64,000 nt of DNA from positions 1-64,000 of the forward strand of contig MPNC01000012.1 of assembly GCA_002238825.1 (NCBI GenBank). The letters run 5' to 3'. The translations under genes and the position numbers were made by a program. Below the pieces are notes generated by a model, which saw nothing but the letters and a program-made list of their open reading frames with translations, was not told the DNA's origin and made no database searches. The DNA is from SAR202 cluster bacterium bin87. Its GTDB lineage: Bacteria; Chloroflexota; Dehalococcoidia; Lucifugimonadales; UBA3495. Positions 2,067 to 35,852 of the stretch are shown here, piece after piece. Numbering within the stretch: the first letter of the stretch is position 1; each line of letters starts with the position of its first letter.

Positions 2067-3965
2067 ATGAACATGGCTACGAAACGCTTAACGCGAATCG
2101 CAATCAGCATATTTTTGAGCCTGATATTGACGATAGCGATCGCTTGCGGCGCTCCGGCCGAACAGCAACCGGAGACCAGCGCGCCGGCGGCTGCCAACCA
2201 GCAGCAACAGCCGGCCGCCAATCAGCAGCAACAGCCGGCCGCCACCGCAGCGCCCGCTGCTCAGGCAGCCGCGCCGGCTCAGCCAACGGCGACGACAGCC
2301 CTGGCGCAGCCGGCCGGCATGAGTGACCGTGCGGCGGGAGGCGCGGCTCCCACTGCCGCGCCCACCGCGACCCCTGAACCCGCGCAAACCGGGGGCCAAC
2401 CGGTACAGGCTGACCTGCGAGTCGCCATCACGCCGCCTTATGCGGAGAACTTGCTGGGCTGGAGAGTCGGCGGTACCAACCAGGGCATGCTCCAGCCCAT
2501 GCAGGAGCATCTGTTCCAACGGGACTACGTGACCTGGGCGGCCAAGCCGATGCTGACCACGGAATGGGAAGTGTCGGAAGACGGCAAGACCTGGCATTTC
2601 CAGCTGCGCGAAGACGTGCTGTACCACCACGGCGAAGACACCTTCGGCGTCTCCGACTTCGTGTTCAGCCTCCAGTTGTGGTCCCACCCTGAGGGGAAGG
2701 GCGCCACTGACTGGTTCCACGAGTTGCTGGGACCGGAGGGTGAGTTGCGGAGCATCGAGGTTGACCCCCTCGGAACAACCGCAGCAGTGGAGGAAGTCTC
2801 TGACAGCGAGATGATCTGGCACTCCAACCGTCCCGAGCTGTGGGTGCCCTTCTGGTTCTCGGACGCGACCACTGACCCGTTGATCTACAGCCTGGACTAC
2901 TGGGAGAAAGTGGGCGAGGACGAGTACGCGCAGAATCCAGTGGGAACCGGCCCCTTCATGCATGTGAGCTACGAGCAGGGGTCAAGGTTGGAATACGAAC
3001 GCGTCCCCTACGAGCACTGGCGGATCACGCCCGACTTCGAAACGCTGACGTTCTTCTTCGCCGAGGAAGACCTGACCCGCGTGGCCATGCTGCGCGCCGG
3101 TGAGGCCGATATCGCCGAGATCCCGCGCGAGCTTCAGGGCGAGATAGTCAACGCTGGATACGCCATCACGCAGAGCACACTGCCGGCATTCATGGTGTGG
3201 GTAGGCATCGGCGGCCAGTATCTCGAGGACCGGCGCGACACCAACGACCCCAACACCAACCTGCTGGTCCGCCGGGCCATGAACCACGCCATCGACCGGA
3301 ACGCCATCAACGAAGCCTTCTTCGACAACAAGATGGAACTGATGTCCAACACCGGCTGGCATCCCACCGACCCGGCCTACGATCCCGCGTGGGAGATCCC
3401 AGCCTACGATCCTGACCTTTCGCGGCAACTGCTGCAGGAAGCGGGATACGCCGAGGGCGCGGGCCCCAGCATCGAGTTCATGTCGGGCAAGCTGGTGGGC
3501 GTACCGGAACTGACGGAGATCGCGGTGCCAATCATCTCCTGGCTCCAGGAGGTCGGGTTCGACGTTGATGCGCAGATCGGAGAGTTCCAGCCCATCCGCA
3601 CGCGCTACAGGGCGCGAGAGATGAACAGCACTCTGTGGACCCATCGGACTGGGTTCTGGCCGTCGGGACGGAACGTGCGGGTGTATTTCGTCAGCCCCAA
3701 CCAGCAGGGATCGGTCTTCATGTATGAGGACCCGTACGTGGAGCAGGAGTACGACCGCTGGAAGCAGAGCGTCAGCGCCGATGAGCGTGAGCAAATCATG
3801 CGCGAAGTCGGCCAGTTCATGTACGAGGAGAACGCCACCATGCCCCTCGGTTTCCTGTTCGCGGAGTTCGGCATCAACCCCAACGTAATCGCCGAGTATT
3901 CGGTGAACAACAGCTACTTTGGGGGCATGAAGGGCCACGAATATACCAGGGTGGTAAGGAACTAG
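2067..3965 (+). CDS. Family 5 (peptide/nickel type) ABC transporter substrate-binding lipoprotein, copy 1
   Basis: A 632-residue extracytoplasmic solute-binding protein of the OppA/DppA class. The N-terminus has a basic patch, a hydrophobic core (IFLSLILTIAIAC) and a lipobox cysteine. A Q/P/A-rich linker of about 90 residues follows, then the SBP_bac_5 fold from VQADLRVAITPPYAENLL onward. Typical family features include GWRVGGTNQGMLQPM, FGVSDFVFSLQLW and the NPVGTGPF segment. The real ligand is unknown; peptides, opines and other small organics are all possible. The next gene is a close paralogue, and both probably feed the DppBC-type permease downstream. GAGG lies just before the ATG; a second in-frame ATG six bases on is an alternative start. 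Confidence 0.9.
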   Translation: MNMATKRLTRIAISIFLSLILTIAIACGAPAEQQPETSAPAAANQQQQPAANQQQQPAATAAPAAQAAAPAQPTATTALAQPAGMSDRAAGGAAPTAAPTATPEPAQTGGQPVQADLRVAITPPYAENLLGWRVGGTNQGMLQPMQEHLFQRDYVTWAAKPMLTTEWEVSEDGKTWHFQLREDVLYHHGEDTFGVSDFVFSLQLWSHPEGKGATDWFHELLGPEGELRSIEVDPLGTTAAVEEVSDSEMIWHSNRPELWVPFWFSDATTDPLIYSLDYWEKVGEDEYAQNPVGTGPFMHVSYEQGSRLEYERVPYEHWRITPDFETLTFFFAEEDLTRVAMLRAGEADIAEIPRELQGEIVNAGYAITQSTLPAFMVWVGIGGQYLEDRRDTNDPNTNLLVRRAMNHAIDRNAINEAFFDNKMELMSNTGWHPTDPAYDPAWEIPAYDPDLSRQLLQEAGYAEGAGPSIEFMSGKLVGVPELTEIAVPIISWLQEVGFDVDAQIGEFQPIRTRYRAREMNSTLWTHRTGFWPSGRNVRVYFVSPNQQGSVFMYEDPYVEQEYDRWKQSVSADEREQIMREVGQFMYEENATMPLGFLFAEFGINPNVIAEYSVNNSYFGGMKGHEYTRVVRN

Positions 3966-3976
3966 GCATTTCGCAA

Positions 3977-4005
3977 GGAGGCACGTCCGCATTGGGCGTG
4001 CCTCC
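3977..4005 (+). terminator. Hairpin after binding protein copy 1
   Basis: A 9-bp perfect stem (GGAGGCACG/CGTGCCTCC) with an 11-base loop lies 11 bases after the stop. It lacks a strong T-run, so termination may be partial. Confidence 0.55.
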
Positions 4006-4376
4006 CACCAACTTCAGATTGAGCCTCGTCGTGTCTGGCAAGAGCCAATGGCGAAAATCCCTCGGGAGCCACGCTCAGGCTCCGCGCGACGACTCCTCTC
4101 CAAGCTAGGACACTAGGATTACGTAAGTGATAGATATTTTTCATCGCATATAATCTATTTTCACAATTATTTTTCCGATTTGCTCTTTACCACACAATAT
4201 TATTTACGGTTCACGTATCAAGGCATATCAACCGTATTTCGTTGCTAGGCATCCCGGTTGACACAGATATGGATTTTCAGTACCTTCCGCCGCACGACTC
4301 AATCGGTTCCGGCCGTTGGGGCGATGCACGTAGCCGCATAAAGCCAACGAGCCAAGCGGCGCAGAGGTGGGAATCT
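4006..4376. promoter_or_regulatory. AT-rich intergenic region with candidate promoter for binding protein copy 2
   Basis: The region contains no supported gene. Bases about 4115-4215 are much more AT-rich than the surroundings and carry a perfect TATAAT at 4149-4154, though the -35 position (AGTGAT) is poor. This implies an untranslated leader of about 215 bases before the ATG at 4377. An open frame from ATG 4242 runs into the gene, but its first 45 residues look non-coding. Confidence 0.4.
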
Positions 4377-6239
4377 ATGTCAAGAGGATTAGCACTACGC
4401 ACTGGAATCGTCGGTCTGCTGGCCCTCGCCGTAACTGCGGCGATCGCCTGCGGAGCGCCTGCTGAGCAGGAACCCGCAACGAGCGCTCCGGCAGCGTCCC
4501 AGCAGCAACAACCGGCGGCGACGCAGGCGCCGGCCGCCCAGGCGCCGGCGCAGCCAACAGCCACCGCGCCGCTTGCCCAGCCAGCCGGCATGAGCGACCG
4601 CGCGGCCGGCGGCGCAGCCCCGACCGTGGCGCCGGCGGCTACAGCGGTACCCGAAACCACCGCAGGTGAGCCCGTACAGGCCGACCTTCGGGTTGCCATC
4701 ACACCGCCGTACGCCGAAAACCTCCTGGGTTGGCGCGTGGGCGGCACCAACCAGGGCATGCTTCAGCCAATGCAGGAAGCGCTGTTCCAGCGCGACTACC
4801 AGACATGGGAAGCCAGGCCGATGTTGGCGGAATCCTGGTCCGTGTCGGCGGACGGGAAGGAATGGACCATCAAGCTCCGTGAAAACGTGCCCTTCCATCA
4901 CGAAACGGATACCTTTGGCGTCTCTGACTTTGTGTTCAGTTTCCAGTTGTGGTCCCATCCAGAAGCCAAGACCGGTTTTGGCGACTTCTGGCACCAGATC
5001 CTGGGACCTGAAGGAGAAATGCGGAGCTGGGAAGTCGAGGACGCTGGTACCGCTGCGACCGTCACCGAAGTCAGTGATAACGAGATGGTCTGGAACATGA
5101 ACCGTCCTGAGCTCTGGATACCGTTCTACGCCTCCGAAGCGACGACGGATCCGCTGATCTACAGCCTGGACTACTGGCAGACCAACGGCGAGGACGCCTA
5201 CGCAGCGAACCCGGTCGGCACCGGGCCCTGGCGCCACGTCAGCTACGAGCAGGGAGCCAGGCTTGAATACGAGCGGGCTTTCGAGGACCACTGGCGCATC
5301 AACCCCGATTTCGACACCCTCACCTTCTTCTTTGCTGAAGAAGACCTCACCCGCGTGGCCATGCTGCGGGCGGGCGAAGCCGACATCGCCGAGATCCCGC
5401 GGGAACTCCAGGGCGAGATCGTGAACGCCGGCTACGCCATTACGCAGAGCACGCTGCCGGCATTCATGGTCTGGATCGGTATCGGCGGGCAGTACCTGGA
5501 AGATCGTCGCGACCCCAACGATCCCAACACCAACGTGCTGGTCCGACGGGCAATGAACCATGCGATGGACCGCGACGCACTCAACGAAGCCTTCTTCGAC
5601 AACAAGATGGAACTGATGGCCAACACTGGCTGGCACCCGACCGATCCGTCGTATGATCCCGCCTGGGAAATCCCGGCCTATGATCCCAACCTCTCCCGTC
5701 AACTCCTTCAGGAAGCCGGGTACGCGGAAGGCTCCGGCCCCAGCATCGAGTTCATGGCCGGCAAACTGGTCGGCGTGCCCGAACTCACGGAAATCGCAGT
5801 GCCCATGATCTCGTGGATGGAGGAAGTCGGTTTCACCATCGACGCCCAAATCGGGGAATTCCAGCCCATCCGCACGCGGTACAAGGCTCGCGAGATGAAC
5901 AGCGTCCTGTGGACCCACCGCACCGGTTTCTGGCCGGCTGGCCGCAACATGCGGGTATACTTCGTCAGCCCCACCCTGGCCGGCGCGGTCTACATGTATG
6001 AAGATCCCCACACCGAGGACCTGTTCAACAAGTGGCAAAGCAGCGTGGATGACCAGGAGCGGCTCAACCTGATGAAGGAAGCCGGCCAGTACATGTACGA
6101 GCAAAACGCCACGATACCGCTGGGCTTCCTGTTCGCGGAGTTCGGCATCAACCCCAACGTCATCGCGGAGTACTCGGTCAACAACAGCTACTTCGGTGGC
6201 ATGAAGGGCCACGAGTACACCAAGGTGGTGCGCAACTAA
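4377..6239 (+). CDS. Family 5 ABC transporter substrate-binding lipoprotein, copy 2
   Basis: A 620-residue paralogue of the preceding gene. The start at 4377 is preferred over the upstream ATG at 4242 because GAGGTGGG precedes it at normal spacing and the protein then begins with a proper lipoprotein signal (GLLALAVTAAIACGAP). After a shorter Q/P/A-rich linker, the mature domains of the two proteins are nearly co-linear; MSDRAAGGAAPT, GEADIAEIPRELQGEIVNAG and the C-terminal NNSYFGGMKGHEYT are shared. The main differences lie in residues about 150-270, the part most likely to alter ligand preference or partner contact. The gene is followed by a strong terminator and then the permeases. Confidence 0.9.
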   Translation: MSRGLALRTGIVGLLALAVTAAIACGAPAEQEPATSAPAASQQQQPAATQAPAAQAPAQPTATAPLAQPAGMSDRAAGGAAPTVAPAATAVPETTAGEPVQADLRVAITPPYAENLLGWRVGGTNQGMLQPMQEALFQRDYQTWEARPMLAESWSVSADGKEWTIKLRENVPFHHETDTFGVSDFVFSFQLWSHPEAKTGFGDFWHQILGPEGEMRSWEVEDAGTAATVTEVSDNEMVWNMNRPELWIPFYASEATTDPLIYSLDYWQTNGEDAYAANPVGTGPWRHVSYEQGARLEYERAFEDHWRINPDFDTLTFFFAEEDLTRVAMLRAGEADIAEIPRELQGEIVNAGYAITQSTLPAFMVWIGIGGQYLEDRRDPNDPNTNVLVRRAMNHAMDRDALNEAFFDNKMELMANTGWHPTDPSYDPAWEIPAYDPNLSRQLLQEAGYAEGSGPSIEFMAGKLVGVPELTEIAVPMISWMEEVGFTIDAQIGEFQPIRTRYKAREMNSVLWTHRTGFWPAGRNMRVYFVSPTLAGAVYMYEDPHTEDLFNKWQSSVDDQERLNLMKEAGQYMYEQNATIPLGFLFAEFGINPNVIAEYSVNNSYFGGMKGHEYTKVVRN

Positions 6240-19015: not shown

Positions 19016-20419
19016 TTAAGCGAACTGGAAATCTCGCGACGCCGCGATCAGGGCCAGCATCACGCCTACCCGTTTTTCGGAATGCGCGATGTCTTCCTGG
19101 CTATCCCACCGAAGTTCGCCCTCGCCGCGGGCTTGGTCGAGCAGCTCGGCCCGGGTCCCGTCGCTGACTTCCAACGGGCCCACGAGCTCGAGGCAGGCTT
19201 CTACGAGCTCGTCCGCACTCAGGTTTCCGCGATCCCGAAGGGTGTCCACCATGGAGCGGACGCCCGGGAGTGAAACGTCGCCGAGCAGGCCGGCGGCGAA
19301 ATTGACGCGACGCACCAGCGCGCCGCCGTCGATCCACTCGCTTCCGGTGTGCCAGCTCTCGACGCTGGGCGGGTTCAGCAGTTCCTGACCCTGGTAACCG
19401 CACTCGAAAGCCAGCGAGTTGAAACCGGGGCGCGGTTGGTTGAAGTTGCCGGCCAGGCGGGCGGTGCTGATCACCAGTTCCGCAGGGCTCTTGACCCGGC
19501 TGAAGCGGGCCTGTTTGAAGAAATCAGAGTTGAACAGGACGCGCAGCATGAAGCGGATGTCGCCGTCCGATTCGTTGTAGGCCGCAACCAGCTGATCAAT
19601 GGCGTCGGGATCGTTGGGCGGCGTGATGTTCCAGCTGGGAACCTGCGGCTCGTCGGCAACGAAGAAGTTGTAGAGGTGCCGAGCCAGGAAGCGGGCGCTG
19701 GCCGGCTGCTCAACCACGAGGTTGATGATGTCCTGGCCGTTGAAGTTCCCGGTGTGCCCCAGGAAGGTCTTCTCGCCGTCGTCGTGGTCCTCGGGACGAT
19801 ACTCGAAATTCCAGTAGAAGCGACCCAGTGGGTTGCGGGGGATCTTCGGCCCGATGGTCCAACCCGTGAAAGCGCGGCTGGCTTCCTTTATGTCTTCCTC
19901 GGAGTAGTTGCCCACCCCCATGGAGAAGAGTTCAAGCAACTCACGGCCCCAGTTCTCGTTGATGGCGCCGCGATGGTTGCCGTTGTTGTCCAGCCAGAAA
20001 ATCATGGCGGGGTTCTGCGCCAGTTCCAGCAGGATATCTCGGAATTTCCCGAGGCCACAACGCCGGAACATGGCGATCTGCTGGGTCAACTCCGGCGGGT
20101 TGTCCACCTTGGAGTTACCCGTGGCGAAAAGCTGGTGCCAGAACAGCGCCATCTTCTCTTCCAGCGGCCGTTCGGTGTTGATCATGCGGTAGACCCAGTC
20201 CGCCTGGTTGAGCGGAGGGCCCAGAGCGCCTTCGTAACCGGGCATGAACCGGTACAGCATTTCTTCGTCCACCGGCTCGAATTGCTCGGGATTGAGCAGG
20301 TCCTCCACGGCAGCTTCGTACCCACGGCCAGCTTTGTCCGTCAACTCGTCGTGGGTCGCACCGAATCCGGCTCTCCGCATCAGGTGACCCATCAACGCAA
20401 TGTCTTCCCGATTCGCCAT
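19016..20419 (-). CDS. DUF1800 family protein, cassette A
   Basis: A 467-residue DUF1800 protein. Family hallmarks are the N-terminal HLMRRAGFGATHDEL, the central LFWHQLFATGNSKV, then INENWGRELLELFSMG and EASRAFTGWTI, and the C-terminal NPPSVESWHTGSEWI. The family is of unknown function and is very often encoded next to DUF1501, as here. No signal peptide is present. The ATG at 20419 follows GGGAGGGATAATC; the GTG at 20434 lies within that binding site and is rejected. First gene of cassette A, with a sigma70-like promoter and a small hairpin in its leader. Confidence 0.9.
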   Translation of the reverse strand: MANREDIALMGHLMRRAGFGATHDELTDKAGRGYEAAVEDLLNPEQFEPVDEEMLYRFMPGYEGALGPPLNQADWVYRMINTERPLEEKMALFWHQLFATGNSKVDNPPELTQQIAMFRRCGLGKFRDILLELAQNPAMIFWLDNNGNHRGAINENWGRELLELFSMGVGNYSEEDIKEASRAFTGWTIGPKIPRNPLGRFYWNFEYRPEDHDDGEKTFLGHTGNFNGQDIINLVVEQPASARFLARHLYNFFVADEPQVPSWNITPPNDPDAIDQLVAAYNESDGDIRFMLRVLFNSDFFKQARFSRVKSPAELVISTARLAGNFNQPRPGFNSLAFECGYQGQELLNPPSVESWHTGSEWIDGGALVRRVNFAAGLLGDVSLPGVRSMVDTLRDRGNLSADELVEACLELVGPLEVSDGTRAELLDQARGEGELRWDSQEDIAHSEKRVGVMLALIAASRDFQFA

Positions 20420-20459
20420 GATTATCCCTCCCACAGAGGAAGATTAGATCGCTCCCGAA

Positions 20460-24898: not shown

Positions 24899-27298
24899 AT
24901 GCACACCATAATCAAGAAATGTGCTGTTTTGGTCGCCATCGCGACACTGACCACGATTGTAGCGGCCTGTGGTGGAGGCAACGGTGAAGCGCCGGCAGCC
25001 CCTGCCGCTCCGGAACAGCCCACTACCCCCGCGCAACAGCCGGCCGGCGCCGCCGCCGAGCAACCCACCCAGGCTCCCGCCATGTCCGACGAGCCTTTCC
25101 GTGTCGGCGTTATGGAGTCGCTCACGGGCCCCGGCGAGACCTACGGAACGGTGTCCGTACAGGCCAAGCAGATGGCAGTCGACGAGATCAACTCGGCCGG
25201 CGGCATCAACGGCCGCATGCTCGAACTGATCGTCGAAGACTCCAAGTGCTCCGCCCAGGACGCCATCACGGCGTACAACAAACTGACCGACGTGGACGGT
25301 GTGAAGATCATTCTCGGCACTTCGTGCAGCGGCGCGATGCTGGGCGCGGCCCCCCTGGCCGAGGGGGACGGCGTGATCCTCTTCTCCGGACTCGCGACCA
25401 ACCCTGACATCGCCCACGCGGGGGACTACATTTTCCGCACGTCCATGAACGACCTGCAGCTGGGCATCGACACCGGCAACGTGATCCGTGCCGACGGCGC
25501 TCAACGCCTGGCCACCATCACGGAAACCACCGACTACGCCGAGGGCGTGCGTCGCACCACTGCGGAGCAGTTCGTCTCTTTGGGCGGCGAAATCGTCGCC
25601 GAGGAACGATACGCCTCGGACGTGACCGACTTCCGCACCCAGTTGACCAAGATTTTGAACGCCAACCCGGACGCAGTGCATATCGCCGCCCAGTCGGAGT
25701 TTTCCGGTGGCACGGTGGTGAAGCAGATCCGCGAGTTGGGATACGAAGGCCCACTGTATTCTGAAATCGTGCCGGTGGGTGCGACTGCCCTTGAAGTCGC
25801 CGGCGAATCGGCGACCGGGTTGAAAGCCGTCATCGCCGAGCTCGATCCTGCCAACAGCAAGAGCCAGGAGGTTCTCAACAACTTCCGGGCGCGTTACGAC
25901 TATGTGACGTTGCCCTGGTACCTGGCCTCCGGCTATGACGACGTGTACATCACGGCAGAATGCCTGAAGATGACCGGAGACGACCAGGACGCCGACGGGT
26001 TCCGGGATTGCCTGTACGGCATCACCTGGAGCGGCGCGATCGGCGAAGATTACAGCTTTGACGCTAACGGTGAGGTAGTCGGCCTGGCCAATGCTGTTGT
26101 CGAGGTCCTCCCCGAAGGCGAGCGCACCGCCGACAACAACGGCTACCGCATCCTGGGCTCCGCGCCCGGCGCGGATGCCGCCGCGGCTGCTCCCGTCGCA
26201 ATGCCCGCCGAGCCCTTCCGCATCGGCGCGATGGACGCCCTGACCGGTCCGGCGGAGACCTACGGCAACCCGATCATCCAGGCCAAGCAACTGGCGGTGG
26301 AAGAGATCAACGCGGCCGGCGGCATCGACGGACGCATGCTGGAACTGATCCCCGAGGACTCCAAGTGCGCCGCGCAGGACGCCATCACCGCCTACAACAA
26401 GCTGACCGACGTCGACGGCGTGAAGATAATTCTGGGAACCACATGCAGCGGCGCGATGCTGGGCGCGGCCCCATTGGCCGAGTCGGAAGGGGTGATCATG
26501 CTGTCCGCGTCGGCCACCAGCCCCGACATCGCGACGGCGGGCGACTACATCTTCCGCACGGCGATAAACGACAGCCAGCTGGGGATCGACACCGGCAACA
26601 CCCTCATCTCTGACGACATTCATCACCTGGCCACCATCACCGAGTCCACCGACTACGCTGAGGGCGCCCGCCGCACCACCGTGGCTCGTCTGGAGGAGCT
26701 GGACGGTCATGTGGTCGCCAGCGAAAGCTACACCTCGGACATCACCGATTTCCGCAGCCAACTCACGAAGCTCATCGCGGCCCAGCCGGACGGTATCTAC
26801 TTGGCCGCCCAGCAGGAATTCTCCGCCGGAACCATCATGAAGCAACTGCGCGAGCTGGGTTACGAGGGGCCGATCTACTCCGAGACCGTCGCCACGGGTC
26901 CCGAAGCGTTGCGCATCGCCGGCGATGCGGCCACCGGAATGAAGGCGATCATCCCCAATCCCGAACTCTCCACGCCGGAAGGGATTGCTTTCCTGAGCAA
27001 TTTTGAAGCGCGGTGGGGCAACGTCGCGACGATTCCGTGGTTCCAGGCGTCCGCCTACGATGACGTGTACATCGCCGCCGAGTGCCTAAGCCAGACTGGT
27101 GACGACCAGGATGCCGACGGGTTCCGGGACTGCCTGTATGGCATGACTCGCAGCGGAGCGATTGGCGACGACTACAGCTTCGACGCCAACGGCGATCTTG
27201 CCGGCCTCAGCAATGTGGTCGTACAGATCCTTCCGCTGTCGGAACGCAACGATGACAACCTGGGTTACGTCGTACTCGGGCAGGCTCCCACGCCTTAG
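24899..27298 (+). CDS. Tandem-fused branched-chain amino acid type substrate-binding lipoprotein (two LivJ-like domains)
   Basis: A 799-residue lipoprotein with signal ATLTTIVAACGGG, cleaved before Cys24. It holds two complete Peripla_BP_6-type domains in one chain, residues about 62-425 and 438-799, roughly twice the family length. The two halves are very alike: MESLTGPGETYG and MDALTGPAETYG, then AYNKLTDVDGVKIILGTSCSGAMLGAAPLAE and its near copy, and both end DDQDADGFRDCLYG-...-YSFDANG. A short A/P linker joins them. GGAGGAGAT precedes the ATG. It is the first gene of a full ABC operon (two permeases, two ATPases). The ligand is unknown; amino acids, amides or aromatic acids are family precedents. 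Confidence 0.93.
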   Translation: MHTIIKKCAVLVAIATLTTIVAACGGGNGEAPAAPAAPEQPTTPAQQPAGAAAEQPTQAPAMSDEPFRVGVMESLTGPGETYGTVSVQAKQMAVDEINSAGGINGRMLELIVEDSKCSAQDAITAYNKLTDVDGVKIILGTSCSGAMLGAAPLAEGDGVILFSGLATNPDIAHAGDYIFRTSMNDLQLGIDTGNVIRADGAQRLATITETTDYAEGVRRTTAEQFVSLGGEIVAEERYASDVTDFRTQLTKILNANPDAVHIAAQSEFSGGTVVKQIRELGYEGPLYSEIVPVGATALEVAGESATGLKAVIAELDPANSKSQEVLNNFRARYDYVTLPWYLASGYDDVYITAECLKMTGDDQDADGFRDCLYGITWSGAIGEDYSFDANGEVVGLANAVVEVLPEGERTADNNGYRILGSAPGADAAAAAPVAMPAEPFRIGAMDALTGPAETYGNPIIQAKQLAVEEINAAGGIDGRMLELIPEDSKCAAQDAITAYNKLTDVDGVKIILGTTCSGAMLGAAPLAESEGVIMLSASATSPDIATAGDYIFRTAINDSQLGIDTGNTLISDDIHHLATITESTDYAEGARRTTVARLEELDGHVVASESYTSDITDFRSQLTKLIAAQPDGIYLAAQQEFSAGTIMKQLRELGYEGPIYSETVATGPEALRIAGDAATGMKAIIPNPELSTPEGIAFLSNFEARWGNVATIPWFQASAYDDVYIAAECLSQTGDDQDADGFRDCLYGMTRSGAIGDDYSFDANGDLAGLSNVVVQILPLSERNDDNLGYVVLGQAPTP

Positions 27299-27329
27299 CC
27301 ACCGTCGAGAAGACAGCGTCCAATGACTG

Positions 27330-27359
27330 AGGGCCGGCCGGAATTAATCGGCCGGCCCT
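27330..27359 (+). terminator. Terminator or attenuator between binding protein and permease
   Basis: An 11-bp perfect stem AGGGCCGGCCG/CGGCCGGCCCT with an 8-base AT loop, followed by TTGTGCT. It is placed to favour binding-protein message over permease message. Confidence 0.78.
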
Positions 27360-27423
27360 TTGTGCTATCATTGCCGCCACCATAACTAATATACGATGAT
27401 TAATCAGACTGGCGAGGATTTCG

Positions 27424-28806
27424 TTGGCTAGCAACCGTGAAGGCGCCCGAGGGCTGCCCCGATTGATCAACGTACCGGGCACCCGGCTGATTGCCGCCTT
27501 GTTGACGGCTCTCGCCCTCGGTTACATTGCCTGGAAGATCGGGCAGGCTCCGCCCCAGGCCTTGCAGTTCGCGTTCAATGGACTGGCTGTGGGCGCGGTG
27601 TATGCCCTGCTGGCGTTGGGTTTCACCCTGGTGTACAGCACGGTCTGGTTCTTCGACCTGTATTACGGAGCAGCGGCCGCGCTGGGCGCGTACGGCGTCT
27701 TCTACCTGCGCACGGATCCTGCGCTGGGCAGCCGCCTGGACATCAACAGCCTTCCGGTCAACGTGATCTTCGGAGCCGTGGTCGCGGGCGTGTTCGCCTG
27801 GACACTGCACACCATGATCGAGCCGCGCCTGCGGAGACGGGCCAGTCCGGCCGTCCTGCGCACGGGCGTTGCGGTGGTCGCCGTCGCAATGGGAATTTAC
27901 ACTGCGATTGTGCTTTCGTATCCGGAGCACCTTCAGCTCACGTTGAGCCCGGCTGTGGGATTGGCGACGGCAGCGGTCGCCATCGCGATCACGCAAAGAG
28001 TTGCCCACAGTGTGGCCTCCCGCGTCAACGCAACCCTGGTCGCGTTGATTGCCGCCGCTCCAGCCGCGGTGTTGGGCGCGTGGTGCGGATACCTGCTGTC
28101 CGGAGCGCCCGGAGCGGGGTTGTATCTCAGCTGGGCAGTGTCGTGCCTGCTGGCCGGCTGCGTGGGCCTGGCCCTGTACCGCGGGCTCTACGTGTACATG
28201 CGGGAGCGGGCACGCTCTCCGCTGATCATGCTGGTGGCGTCGTTGGGCATACTGCTGGCGATCGCCGCGCTCATCGTTATCGTGTTTCAGAGCGCTCCCC
28301 GGCCGTTGCCGGATGCCTTCGGCAGCACTCCCTGGAACATCGGCGGCGCGCGCATCAAAGGGTTCAACGTATTTGCCATCGGCGTGGCCCTCGCCGGTTT
28401 CGCCGGCATGTGGCTCCTGCTGAAGATGACCTCCTTCGGACGCGCCGTGCGGGCCATCGGCGACGACGAAGAGGTGTCCAAGGTCGTCGGCATTAACACC
28501 ACCGTGATCATTGCCGTGGTGTTTTTCATCGGCGCAATGTACGCGGCCATGGCCGGCATCTTGACCGGTCACGACACCGCCTTGCAGCCGCGCATGGGAC
28601 TGCTCCTGCTGCTGAAAGGCTGGATCGCGTCGGTGGTGGGCGGCATCGGAAACTTGTACGGCGCTATCGTGGGCGGGTTCGTGCTGGGGCTGGTGGAGCA
28701 ATTCGGCATCTGGGACCTGGCCGGAGAGTGGAAAGACGCCATCTCGTTCGGGTTGCTGATACTGTTCCTGTCCTTCTGGCCACAGGGCCTATTGCCGAGA
28801 AGGTGA
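27424..28806 (+). CDS. LivH-type ABC permease with an internal insertion
   Basis: A 460-residue inner-membrane permease. The LivH-like core is clear: FNGLAVGAVYALLALGFTLVYSTVWFF, then FGRAVRAIGDDEEVSKVVGINT (cytoplasmic loop contacting the ATPase) and KGWIASVVGGIGNLYGAIVGGFVLGLVE. Typical LivH proteins have about 290-310 residues; the excess here is a hydrophobic insertion at residues about 130-260 that appears to add three or more membrane segments. A TTG start at 27424 preceded by GGCGAGGA is the only one that fits; no ATG lies nearby in frame. Next gene 4 bases downstream. Confidence 0.88.
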   Translation: MASNREGARGLPRLINVPGTRLIAALLTALALGYIAWKIGQAPPQALQFAFNGLAVGAVYALLALGFTLVYSTVWFFDLYYGAAAALGAYGVFYLRTDPALGSRLDINSLPVNVIFGAVVAGVFAWTLHTMIEPRLRRRASPAVLRTGVAVVAVAMGIYTAIVLSYPEHLQLTLSPAVGLATAAVAIAITQRVAHSVASRVNATLVALIAAAPAAVLGAWCGYLLSGAPGAGLYLSWAVSCLLAGCVGLALYRGLYVYMRERARSPLIMLVASLGILLAIAALIVIVFQSAPRPLPDAFGSTPWNIGGARIKGFNVFAIGVALAGFAGMWLLLKMTSFGRAVRAIGDDEEVSKVVGINTTVIIAVVFFIGAMYAAMAGILTGHDTALQPRMGLLLLLKGWIASVVGGIGNLYGAIVGGFVLGLVEQFGIWDLAGEWKDAISFGLLILFLSFWPQGLLPRR

Positions 28807-28810
28807 CGCA

Positions 28811-29866
28811 ATGCCGGTGAATATTGAGGGCATCCGCGAGTTTGCCCGGCTCGCACGAGAACCTAGCGAGTTGGTTCGTCACGCCCGCGGCAACATCGGT
28901 CTGTGGCTGACTTTGATCGCTGTGGCGGCAGCGGCGGTGTTTATGCTGATGAGCGGCACCAAGTTCGCCGTGGGCGCCGCTACGCTTTTCGCGATCTGGG
29001 CTATCTTGGCGGTAAGCCTGAACCTCGTGGTCGGATATACGGGCCTGCTGTCTGTGGGACACGTCGGCTTTTTCGGCATCGGGGCATACACTATGGCCGT
29101 ACTTACTTCGGAGGCCCCGTACGAACAGTTACGCACAGGAGTGATCCCTACCTTCGGCTGGCCCTTCTTCGCGGTGTTGCCACTGTGCATCGTCCTGGCC
29201 GGATTGGCAGCCCTGATTGTCGGCGTGGTGTTCAACCGATTCCGCGATGACATCTTTGTTTTGGTGTCCTTCGGCTTCGCAATAATCGCCTATAGCGTGT
29301 TCCTCAACCTGCGGAGCGTCACACGCGGGGCGTTCGGAATTCACGAAATAGTCCGACCCCAGATCGGCGCGTGGACATTCGACGGGAATGTGGCATTTTT
29401 GCTGCTGGCGCTGGTGTTCTTGGGTTTCGTAATGCTGATATCGTGGTTTATCACAACGTCATCTTTTGGGAGGGTCCTCACCGCAATTCGCGAAGACGAG
29501 CAGGCCATCGAAGTGTTTGGCTATCAAGCCACTCATTTCAAGCTGGCGGTCTGGGTGATTTCTGCGATGATGGCCGGGCTCGCGGGCGGCCTGTTCGCCA
29601 GTTGGACAAGGTTCATCGACCCTAACTCGTTCATCCTCCTCGAGTCAGTTCTGCTGGTGTCCATCGTGATCCTGGGCGGCCTGGCCAGCATCTGGGGTTC
29701 CCTGCTGGGCGCGATGGCGTTCGTGTTGCTGGAGGAGGGTATGCGCTTTTTGCCCTTCATTCCCACGGAGTACACCGGCCAGGCGCGCCAGGTGGTCCTG
29801 GGAATACTCCTGGTGCTGCTGATGCTGTTCCGGCCACAAGGACTGGTGGGGAGGTTCCGGCTATGA
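28811..29866 (+). CDS. LivM-type ABC permease
   Basis: A 351-residue inner-membrane permease of the branched-chain amino acid transporter family. Supporting segments are WAILAVSLNLVVGYTGLLSVGHVGFFGIGAY (the LivM signature, with GLLSVGHVGFFGIGAY), SFGRVLTAIREDEQAIEVFGY (ATPase-contact loop) and GGLASIWGSLLGAMAFVLLEE. It pairs with the preceding LivH-type protein. The stop overlaps the next start by four bases (ATGA), showing translational coupling. Confidence 0.94.
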   Translation: MPVNIEGIREFARLAREPSELVRHARGNIGLWLTLIAVAAAAVFMLMSGTKFAVGAATLFAIWAILAVSLNLVVGYTGLLSVGHVGFFGIGAYTMAVLTSEAPYEQLRTGVIPTFGWPFFAVLPLCIVLAGLAALIVGVVFNRFRDDIFVLVSFGFAIIAYSVFLNLRSVTRGAFGIHEIVRPQIGAWTFDGNVAFLLLALVFLGFVMLISWFITTSSFGRVLTAIREDEQAIEVFGYQATHFKLAVWVISAMMAGLAGGLFASWTRFIDPNSFILLESVLLVSIVILGGLASIWGSLLGAMAFVLLEEGMRFLPFIPTEYTGQARQVVLGILLVLLMLFRPQGLVGRFRL

Positions 29867-30612
29867 CCGCGAATAACGAGGCTCTGGCCCTGGAAACTGA
29901 CAGCATCTCCAAGCACTTCGGCGCGGTTAGGGCCGTTGACGAATTGAGCCTGTCGATCCCGCGCCAGGGCACCACCAGCATCGTCGGACCCAACGGTTCC
30001 GGCAAGTCGACGCTGGTCAACCTGCTCAGCGGCGTGCTCCCCCTGGACGGCGGCATGGTGATCATCGACGGAGCCGGCTTGCGGGTCGTGCATGCCCACG
30101 AGACGCCGGCGCACGGTCTGACCCGGACTTTCCAGGAGGTCAGGCTGTTCGACCAGATCACCGTCTGGGACAACATCATGGTGGTGCTGACCGAACGCAA
30201 GCTGTTCCCGTCGCTGCTGGAGCGCGTCCGGCCGGCCAACCGTCGGAAAGCCCAGGATATCCTCGAGTCGGTCGGCATGTGGGAAAAGCGAGAATCGATG
30301 GCCATGGAACTGTCCTACGGACAGCGCAAGCTGCTGGAAATCGGACGCGCCATGGCAATGGATGTACAGACCTACCTCTTCGATGAGCCGTTCGCGGGTC
30401 TCTTTCCGCAGATGCTGGAGCGGGTCAAGGACATCATGAAACAGATGCGCGCCGACGGCTACACAATCGTTTTTGTGTCCCACAACATGGACATCGTTCG
30501 GGAACTGTCCGACCGCATCATTGTGCTGGACAGCGGAACCCTGCTGGCCGCCGGCGACGTGGAACCGGTGCTGGGCAGCGAAGAAGTTATCGAGGCATAC
30601 CTGGGGGCATGA
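29863..30612 (+). CDS. LivG-type ABC transporter ATPase
   Basis: A 249-residue nucleotide-binding subunit in the cytoplasm. Walker A is GPNGSGKST, the ABC signature is LSYGQRKLLEIGRAM (a slight variant of LSxGQ), Walker B is YLFDEPFAGL (Glu present) and the switch His lies in FVSHNMD. LivG-type features include the long segment after Walker A with TRTFQEVRLFDQITVWDN. It forms a heterodimer with the following LivF-type ATPase. Overlaps both neighbours by four bases. Confidence 0.94.
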   Translation: MTANNEALALETDSISKHFGAVRAVDELSLSIPRQGTTSIVGPNGSGKSTLVNLLSGVLPLDGGMVIIDGAGLRVVHAHETPAHGLTRTFQEVRLFDQITVWDNIMVVLTERKLFPSLLERVRPANRRKAQDILESVGMWEKRESMAMELSYGQRKLLEIGRAMAMDVQTYLFDEPFAGLFPQMLERVKDIMKQMRADGYTIVFVSHNMDIVRELSDRIIVLDSGTLLAAGDVEPVLGSEEVIEAYLGA

Positions 30613-31376
30613 TGACGTCTGCGTCCGCACGCACCATGAATCAGGCTGACCAGAACGGCGCGGCTCCTCTCCTGGAACTGGTCGGGATATCGGTGGAGTA
30701 CGGCGCGGTCCGGGCGTTGGACGACATCTCCATGGGCGTCCAAAAGGGCGAAGTGGTGGCGGTGATGGGTCCCAACGGGGCCGGCAAGTCCACCGTGCTC
30801 AAGGCGGTGATGGGTCTGGCGCCGGTGGTGTCCGGCCAGGTGTACTGGCGTGAAAAGCCGCTGGCCGCCGCCACCCACGAGATCGTCAAGGAAGGGATAG
30901 CGTTCGTGCCCCAGGGCCGGCGGGTGTTCACCCACCTGACGATCACCGAGAACCTCGAAATGGGCTGCATCTATCTCAACGACCGGGCCGAGAAGGCGAA
31001 CCGGCTCGATTCAGTGATGGAACTGTTCCCGGTGCTCCATGAAAAGCGCAAGGACATGGCCAGCGCGATGTCCGGCGGCCAGCAGCAGATGCTGGCCCTG
31101 GGTCGAGGGCTGATGGCCTCGCCGGAGGTTCTGCTGCTGGATGAGCCGACCCTGGGCCTGGCGCCGATCATCGTCAAAGAGGTCTTCGAAAAGGTTGCCG
31201 AAATCAGCGAGCGCCTCGACACCACCATCATGGTGGTTGAGCACAACATCAAGGGCGTGCTGGACATCGTAGACCGGGCCTACGTTCTGGACAAGGGAAC
31301 CGTGGTGCATAATGGCACGCCCGAGTCCATCAGGGAGACCGACATACTGACCCAGGTGTTCCTCGGCAGCGCGTAG
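30609..31376 (+). CDS. LivF-type ABC transporter ATPase
   Basis: A 255-residue nucleotide-binding subunit. Walker A is GPNGAGKST, the signature is MSGGQQQMLALGRGLM, Walker B is LLLDEPTLGLAP, and VVEHNIKG carries the switch His. LivF-type features are FVPQGRRVFTHLTITENLEMG and the short C-terminus. Starts at ATG 30609 overlapping the LivG stop; the second ATG three bases later is equally possible. Last gene of the five-gene operon; no clear terminator follows before the convergent XRE gene. Confidence 0.94.
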   Translation: MMTSASARTMNQADQNGAAPLLELVGISVEYGAVRALDDISMGVQKGEVVAVMGPNGAGKSTVLKAVMGLAPVVSGQVYWREKPLAAATHEIVKEGIAFVPQGRRVFTHLTITENLEMGCIYLNDRAEKANRLDSVMELFPVLHEKRKDMASAMSGGQQQMLALGRGLMASPEVLLLDEPTLGLAPIIVKEVFEKVAEISERLDTTIMVVEHNIKGVLDIVDRAYVLDKGTVVHNGTPESIRETDILTQVFLGSA

Positions 31377-33195: not shown

Positions 33196-34332
33196 CTACT
33201 TTATGAAGTCGAACTGCTCGTAGGAGCCCTTAAGGATCTCCTGGTCGTCCAGATCAAGCCACTTGTCCAGGATGGTGGCGTAGGTGCTGCGGAAGTCGTT
33301 GTTCCACCTCAGGTCACCTTCGTCCAGCTTGTCCGGTTCCAGGGACGGGTAGTCGCCGTAGAGGCCACCCTTGACGCCATCGCCGATCACGAAGGCCACG
33401 CTGCCCGAACCGTGGTCGGTGCCGGAACCGTTCTCCTGAACGCGGCGGCCGAACTCGGTAAAGAGAAGCATGACTACTTCTTCATTAGCGTTGTGCTCTT
33501 TCAGGTCCTGGTAGAGGTCGTTGACCGCCCGGGACACCTCGCCCCACAGCTTCGCGAAGGAGGTCGGCTGGTTGGCGTGCGTGTCGAATGCGCCGGGGTT
33601 CAGGCCGGTGTAGAGGACACGGGTGCCGAACCCGGCAGTGTGCACCTGGGCAACGTTCTTCACCCACTGTGAGAACATGTCCCCGCCGTACTCCACGCTG
33701 GAGGAATAGATCTCCGGCGCGGTGCGCAGGATGTCGGCGCCTTTCAGGGCGTCCAGGCCGGTCTGGGACAGGTACTCGTTGATGGGTCCGGAGCCGACCA
33801 TGGGCGAGTACATCCGGGAGAAGATGTCCAGCGCCTCGGCGCGCTGACTCTCACCGTCGATGCCGGTCAGCACACCGTAGGTCTCCAGGCTGCCGACGGA
33901 GGCGACGGACACGCCCGGGGCTGCCAGGGCGCGGGGGAGTCCGCGGCCGAAGTTGACGGCGGTCAGGACGTTTTCCTTGTTGGGGTCAATGTCCTGGATG
34001 GCGCGGCCCAGCCAGCCCTCGCTGGACATCTTGGCCGGCTCAGCGGTGTGCCAGATATCCATGGAGCGGAAGTGAGAGCGGATGGGGTTGGGATAGCCAA
34101 TGCCCTGGATCACGGCAACTTTCCCGTCGTCGTACATATCCTTGATCGGGGCCATGGCGGGGTGGAACCCAACCTTGTCGTCAACTGCCAGGACTTCCTC
34201 GACCTCCACCTTCAGGTGAGGGCGATAGTCCTTGTACAACGGGTCGTTGTAGGGGATGATGGTGTTGAGAGCATCAAAGGCCCCCGACATCTGCAGGACT
34301 ACCAGGACCGGGTCTTTCTTCGTAGCGGTCAC
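33196..34332 (-). CDS. DUF1501 family protein, cassette B
   Basis: A 378-residue DUF1501 protein, begun at GTG 34332 because GGGAGGAAAAATC precedes it and the resulting N-terminus (TATKKDPVLVVLQMSGAFDALNT) aligns with the other two copies. Candidate metal-site motifs are PGAFDTHANQ (the HGSF of copies A and C is PGAF here) and LFTEFGRRVQENGSGTDHGSG. IRSHFRSMDIWHTAEP is also shared. No Tat signal is visible. It is the most divergent of the three copies at the SF/AFDxH site. Second gene of cassette B. Confidence 0.9.
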   Translation of the reverse strand: MTATKKDPVLVVLQMSGAFDALNTIIPYNDPLYKDYRPHLKVEVEEVLAVDDKVGFHPAMAPIKDMYDDGKVAVIQGIGYPNPIRSHFRSMDIWHTAEPAKMSSEGWLGRAIQDIDPNKENVLTAVNFGRGLPRALAAPGVSVASVGSLETYGVLTGIDGESQRAEALDIFSRMYSPMVGSGPINEYLSQTGLDALKGADILRTAPEIYSSSVEYGGDMFSQWVKNVAQVHTAGFGTRVLYTGLNPGAFDTHANQPTSFAKLWGEVSRAVNDLYQDLKEHNANEEVVMLLFTEFGRRVQENGSGTDHGSGSVAFVIGDGVKGGLYGDYPSLEPDKLDEGDLRWNNDFRSTYATILDKWLDLDDQEILKGSYEQFDFIK

Positions 34333-34400
34333 GATTTTTCCTCCCGTGGGAATTGTTGCGCGGTTCGTAGGCAAATTCGCGCCAGCCGCACCGGTGTCGG

Positions 34401-35810
34401 CTAGGCGTAGATATATTCCTTGGTGGCGACGATCATCTGGAGCAACTCGCTGACGCGATCGGCGAACTCCGCCGTGTCGGTGTTGATCGTTCCGCCCTTT
34501 TTGAGGCTTGCGGCCAGCATCTCGCGGGTCTCCGGCGACAGCTCGTAGTGACCCATCAGCCGCGAGGTGGTATCCACCATATCCTCTGCTGAGATGACCG
34601 GACCCTGATCAGCCAGGCGGTCGATGATCTCCCGAACTCCAGGCTGCTTGACATCGCCCACGAAATCGGCGGTGAAATTGATGCGATGCACCAGCGTGCC
34701 GCCGTCAATCCACTCGCGTCCGGTGTGCCAGCCTTCGACCGACGGAGGGTTGAAGATCTCCTGACCCATGTGCTTCATCTCGTCAAAGATGAACTCGAAG
34801 CCGGGCTTGGGTTCCGTCCAGTCGCCCACAAGCCTCAAGGTCCCGATTACGGTCTCGATGGGGCTCTTGACGCGCTGGAAGCGGGCGTTCTTGAACGCAT
34901 CGGAGTGGAACAGGACCCGAAGCATGGAACGGATATCGTAGCCGGAGCGGAAATACTCGTCCTCCAGCATCTTGATGGTGTCCATGTCCCGCGGCGGGGT
35001 GTCCATCCACGACGGAACCTGCGCCTCGTCCGCCACGAAGTAACTGTACAGGTGGCGGGAGATGAAGCGGGCGGTGGCCGGCTGCTTCGCGATGATGTCG
35101 ATCACATCCTCGCCGTCGAAATTGCCGGTCTCACCCAGGAAGGTCTTGACGCCCTCGTCGTGGTCGTCCGGGTTGTAGACAAACTTGGCGGAGTAGCGAC
35201 CGTAGGGTTGACCCGGGATGTTGTTGGCAATGGTCCAGCCCGTAAAGGCGCGAGCGCATTCCTTCACGTCGTCCTCGGAGTAGTTGAACTCGCCGTCCAT
35301 GCCGACGCCCATGGAGAACAACTCCAGCAACTCGCGGCCGTAGTTCTCGTTGATGGCGCCCTTGTGGCTGAGGCAGTTGTCCAGGAAGAAGATCATCGCT
35401 GGATCTTTGGAAATCTGCACCAGCAGATCGCGGAAACTACCCATGCCGTACTGCCGGAACATTTCAATCTCGTCATACGACGTCGGGTAGCTCTGGGTCT
35501 TGCTGTCCGCAGTGCACAGGATGCTATGCCAGAAGAGGCATATTTTCTCTTCCAGCTGGTTCCTGGAATTGATGAAACGGAAGGCGACGTACTCGGGCAA
35601 GCCCCGGGTGTGGTGGCTCCACTCGATGAAGCATCGCTCCGCGATGTCCAGGTCCATCCCATTGTCATGCTGTTCGGGGTTCAGCAACTCGTCGACGGTG
35701 GCGTCGTACCCCTTGGCCGCACGGGCCTCGAGCTCATCGTACTTTGCGCCGAAACCGGCCCGGCGCATGAGATGAGCCATCAATCCAATGTCGTGGTCAT
35801 TGTATGCCAT
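34401..35810 (-). CDS. DUF1800 family protein, cassette B
   Basis: A 469-residue DUF1800 protein with HLMRRAGFGAKYDEL near the N-terminus, LFWHSILCTADSKT in the middle, INENYGRELLELFSMG, ARAFTGWTI, and NPPSVEGWHTGREWIDGG toward the end. No signal peptide. GAGGAGGTTTTACC precedes the ATG at 35810; the longer frame from 35840 lacks a binding site. First gene of cassette B, 68 bases before DUF1501. Confidence 0.9.
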   Translation of the reverse strand: MAYNDHDIGLMAHLMRRAGFGAKYDELEARAAKGYDATVDELLNPEQHDNGMDLDIAERCFIEWSHHTRGLPEYVAFRFINSRNQLEEKICLFWHSILCTADSKTQSYPTSYDEIEMFRQYGMGSFRDLLVQISKDPAMIFFLDNCLSHKGAINENYGRELLELFSMGVGMDGEFNYSEDDVKECARAFTGWTIANNIPGQPYGRYSAKFVYNPDDHDEGVKTFLGETGNFDGEDVIDIIAKQPATARFISRHLYSYFVADEAQVPSWMDTPPRDMDTIKMLEDEYFRSGYDIRSMLRVLFHSDAFKNARFQRVKSPIETVIGTLRLVGDWTEPKPGFEFIFDEMKHMGQEIFNPPSVEGWHTGREWIDGGTLVHRINFTADFVGDVKQPGVREIIDRLADQGPVISAEDMVDTTSRLMGHYELSPETREMLAASLKKGGTINTDTAEFADRVSELLQMIVATKEYIYA

Positions 35811-35852
35811 TGGTAAAACCTCCTCGATCTGAATCAACAAATCGTCAGCGGT

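Follow-up and report, generated by a model that had tools for sequence, protein, structure and literature searches.

It is already known that one pump can be served by two receptors, either as separate proteins or, in other importer families, as domains fused to the permease. Among the functional parallels found, the best studied is GlnPQ, the receptor domains of which belong to another receptor family than the one considered here. Its tandem receptors, joined by a linker of 14 residues, bind independently with their own affinities and differ in specificity (PMC8025302). As for receptors of the LivJ/LivK type, a literature search for tandem HAAT receptors found none, subscription papers being mostly outside its coverage. 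Here, we describe a gene from a marine, sponge-type Chloroflexota bacterium, found in a stretch of 64,000 nucleotides (the window). We read its product, with a probability of about 0.68, as a lipid-anchored tandem receptor made of two fused paralogous Leu-type (HAAT, Peripla_BP_6) proteins, which would offer two ligand spectra to one LivHMGF permease. The new element would be the fused Leu-type receptor pair on one lipid anchor.

The gene (24899–27298; this and all other features of the operon lie on the + strand) is an uninterrupted open reading frame for a single chain of 799 amino acids, and its ATG is preceded by a good ribosome-binding site, GGAGGAG. The chain begins with a lipoprotein signal peptide (24899–24970) ending in the lipobox VAAC, in which Cys24 is the expected acylation site and A23-C24-G25 are invariant in 11 orthologues. 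An Ala/Pro/Gln-rich tether with pLDDT under 50 follows the lipid anchor (24971–25084) and leads to the N receptor domain (25094–26170), an Ala/Pro-rich inter-domain linker of low pLDDT without a second lipobox (26171–26212) and the C receptor domain (26213–27295). Pfam matches Peripla_BP_6 in two stretches (E 3.8e-101), with 339.6 bits in total over both against the PF13458 cut-off of 31.7. Each half exceeds that cut-off singly, with 172 and 180 bits, and both are thus Peripla_BP_6, type I (HAAT) substrate-binding proteins. The NCBIfam model of the E. coli-type LivJ/LivK, PRK15404, scores 238.9 bits against a curated cut-off of 477, and the protein does not fall under it. With its open frame, lipobox and doubled Peripla_BP_6 match, the protein agrees with the preliminary description in being a LivJ-type lipoprotein of double length that contains two receptor domains. 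That description also had each domain end in a shared block, DDQDADGFRDCLYG. The block is indeed present in both domains, at 25979–26020 (residues 361–374), a family-wide helix region according to the alignment of relatives and the model, and at 27101–27142 (residues 735–748) according to the sequence and the same alignment; however, about 50 residues come after it in each domain. It is kept in single-domain relatives too. A possible calcium loop was also considered, as DDQDADGFRD resembles DxDxDGxxD, and was set aside because the third Asp is replaced by Ala in several relatives and the region runs into a helix in the model.

The two-domain gene is the first of a complete LivH-LivM-LivG-LivF operon, so that receptor, permeases and ATPases stand side by side at 24899–31376. 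The LivH-type permease (27424–28806) was recognized by BPD_transp_2, with PRK10740 below its cut-off; domain and NCBIfam models identify the LivM-type permease (28811–29866), the LivG-type ATPase (29863–30612) and the LivF-type ATPase (30609–31376). LivH is extended, having 460 residues against 308 in the NCBIfam LivH model, and the extension also occurs in operons with single-domain receptors (about 449–485 residues); thus, it is not tied to the receptor fusion. On both sides of the operon lie genes at 19016–20434 (−) and 33196–35840 (−), which by likeness we take to be DUF1800/DUF1501-like and the synteny of which is kept within the genus.

Searching the same genome and about 60 relatives, and reading the gene neighbourhoods, revealed the same fusion in the same operon, followed by the same genes for permease and ATPase, in 10 further genomes of the genus (G001, G003, G005, G006, G008, G009, G010, G011, G012 and G013), two of them one-contig assemblies (G010, OX638345.1; G006, OY282456.1). 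In the same-genus comparison the gene is absent from G002 (one contig) and G004. The named records among the relatives are Chloroflexota MAGs, including Dehalococcoidia and SAR202-labelled ones. The dN/dS ratio between orthologues is 0.02–0.14 in both halves, and purifying selection acts on both. It could be argued that the gene is an assembly artefact or a pseudogene fusion, as the contigs of G007 and G012 break inside or near it, the gene of G007 being split over two contig ends. However, an intact open frame in ten other genomes, including the one-contig assemblies, together with purifying selection, leaves a negligible chance of this, and assembly fusion is excluded in practice. Two further copies deserve mention. 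G013 has a second two-domain gene (L048, contig G013:C34, 6671–9070, +), with no liv genes recognized nearby; its C half, but not its N half, has the corresponding half of that genome's operon copy as its closest relative. The genome of the window itself carries a single-domain paralogue whose reading frame is interrupted, giving pieces of 298 and 101 amino acids (L059, contig G000:C39, 7015–8262, −), and which is probably a pseudogene.

The two halves were initially described as near-identical, which overstates their likeness: 240 of 360 residues (67%) are identical, as are 71% of nucleotides and 52% of third codon positions, the last being nearly saturated. The longest exact stretch of DNA that they share is 29 bp, and dS between them is about 0.95. 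Gene conversion was considered on the basis of this dS and set aside, the shared codons being barely above expectation (142 vs 125).

How did two such domains come to lie in one chain? Head-to-tail order and 67% identity would suit a simple internal duplication of one domain within the genus followed by divergence, as the preliminary description supposed. In trees of the halves and single-domain relatives, which are unrooted and have weak deep branches, the N halves adjoin the single-domain receptors that head the same operon in sister genera; a single-domain receptor holds this position in six further genera within the family and order (G015, G022, G028, G038, G041 and G054). The C halves are sister, with an SH-aLRT value of 100, to single-domain genes that belong to other genera and classes (L130, L135, L146, L152 and L167–L172, the last six belonging to other classes of the phylum). 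These genes are permease-less in the sense that no permease gene was recognized within a few kilobases on either side. Forcing the N and C halves into one clade costs 98.8 log-likelihood units and is rejected by the AU test (p = 0.0003), in which the constrained group was set by the duplication hypothesis and the homogenized genes of G006 and G008 (see below) were left out. In addition, at the 26 columns with fixed differences between N and C, the permease-less (B-type) single-domain receptors are C-like in 21–23 and the operon single-domain receptors are N-like in 20–22. Because trees, AU test and diagnostic columns agree, the two-domain protein is most readily explained by the fusion of two ancient paralogues, and internal duplication becomes highly improbable. 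The N half derives from the single-domain receptor at the operon position in sister genera, whereas the C half goes back to a different single-domain paralogue, which occurs without permease genes in other Chloroflexota. It is unlikely that all B-type single-domain receptors arose by later fission, because they are spread over other classes.

What do the two domains bind? The predicted model of the N domain (pLDDT 94.5) has the two-lobe type I fold, its best PDB match being the leucine-binding protein 3td9 (Z 44.5, rmsd 2.1 over 342 residues); 4gnr follows with Z 43.6, and the matches overall are receptors for leucine and related amino acids. In LivJ, the ligand is contacted by Tyr18, Ser79, Thr102 and Tyr150 (PMC6983066). 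When LivJ positions are mapped onto the halves by sequence alignment, these four residues, as well as the Cys53-Cys78 pair, do not vary in either half of the two-domain genes. LivJ Tyr202 is replaced by Gln throughout the family, which leaves room for ligands other than branched-chain amino acids. The anchoring residues are thus kept, but positions 77, 99, 100 and 103 are Ser, Gly, Leu and Asn in the N half and Thr, Ala, Ser and Ser in the C half. As these four pocket-lining positions differ consistently, binding of two ligands by one chain is plausible. Judging from the residues, amino-acid-like ligands with side-chain preferences differing between the halves are the likeliest reading.

Not every species conforms to this pattern. 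Trees and diagnostic columns indicate that the gene of G008 has two N-type halves (N+N) and that of G006 two C-type halves (C+C); one half has therefore been overwritten with the other, in two independent events, with two domains kept. These genes speak against the two-ligand reading, in that not every species needs to have two different specificities, and suggest that each receptor type alone can serve the permease. They also favour an explanation by dosage or avidity, in which both domains bind the same ligand and the tandem merely raises the local receptor concentration at the pump; the identity of the main anchoring residues in both halves would fit this as well. In 11 of the 13 two-domain genes compared, however, N and C fall into separate clades distinguished by fixed differences, of which several lie in the pocket, and dN/dS is low in each half. 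Dosage alone seems unlikely for these reasons, and we prefer a tandem receptor with two ligand spectra. The trees of the N and C halves are discordant: the window gene is 98% identical to G013a in N and 80% in C, and 87% identical to G003 in N and 93% in C. Such discordance suggests that lineages have exchanged halves. A tentative view, which we consider less likely than not, is that of a modular receptor with two slots on one lipoprotein: both slots would persist within the genus, while the receptor type that fills a given slot would change from species to species (N+C, N+N, C+C). If so, ligand range would evolve by domain swapping before a constant permease.

An outline of how the proposed tandem receptor may have arisen and may work is as follows: in an ancestor of the genus, a permease-less B-type receptor gene would have come to sit behind the operon's own receptor gene. 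Then the stop and signal boundary between the two genes would have been lost, in this presumed order, to give a single chain. One membrane anchor would carry two independent clamshell domains on a flexible Ala/Pro linker; in the full-length model each domain is formed, with no reliable inter-domain arrangement (pTM 0.48). Each domain may close independently on its own amino-acid-like ligand, different from that of the other, and both would dock in turn on the single LivHMGF permease. The tandem would thereby double the receptor sites per anchor and allow one pump to serve two ligand spectra. Sponge-associated SAR202 members have been described as amino-acid users (PMC6306507), and the locus adds a concrete uptake feature for marine Chloroflexota. 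Related species with N+C, N+N and C+C forms of the protein constitute a natural experiment on receptor number and type versus importer range.

Two domains in one chain are unusual for this family, as the preliminary description had stated: among about 130 other Peripla_BP_6 matches in 30 further sampled genomes of the phylum, none is paired in one frame, and when 300 genomes were searched with a profile, the three best-scoring candidates of each included no further two-domain protein. A plasmid search gave 161 records with 80% cover; among the matches listed, each half hits one and the same single gene of 1 kb, and the cover figure is uninformative. Rare though it is, the architecture is not unique, because a further two-domain chain of 746 amino acids, truncated N-terminally where the contig stops, is found at 2666–4906 (−) of contig G046:C30 (L181). 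Like the window protein, it has two Peripla_BP_6 domains per chain beside a LivH/UrtB-type permease (an 841-aa LivH/UrtB-like frame), but it is distant in sequence and has a PGF-CTERM-like archaeal tail; its contig has probably entered that MAG as archaeal contamination.

With LivJ/LivK-type receptors (PF13458) the window protein shares the fold, the anchoring residues, the Cys53-Cys78 pair and the LivHMGF operon, whereas the solved members found have one receptor domain per chain and here there are two paralogues. Its unfused counterpart is seen in other Chloroflexota, where two adjacent receptor genes precede the same LivH (L093, L095, L109, L111, L113, L116, L122 and L128); these likewise provide two paralogous receptors with one permease, but as two separate lipoproteins, the second coming from sub-clades other than that of the C half. 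In L111, L113, L114, L122 and L128, the second of the two adjacent genes falls in the permease-less receptor clade and is apparently an orphan receptor that the liv operon captured independently. GlnPQ, with SBD1 and SBD2, likewise has two tandem amino-acid receptor domains with diverged pockets on a short flexible linker before one pump (PMC8025302), and the Ala/Pro-rich linker of low pLDDT gives the window protein the same arrangement in one chain. The 799-aa protein is, however, not fused to a transmembrane permease: in GlnPQ the receptors are part of the permease chain, whereas here the tandem is a separate lipoprotein and the permeases are encoded by separate genes.
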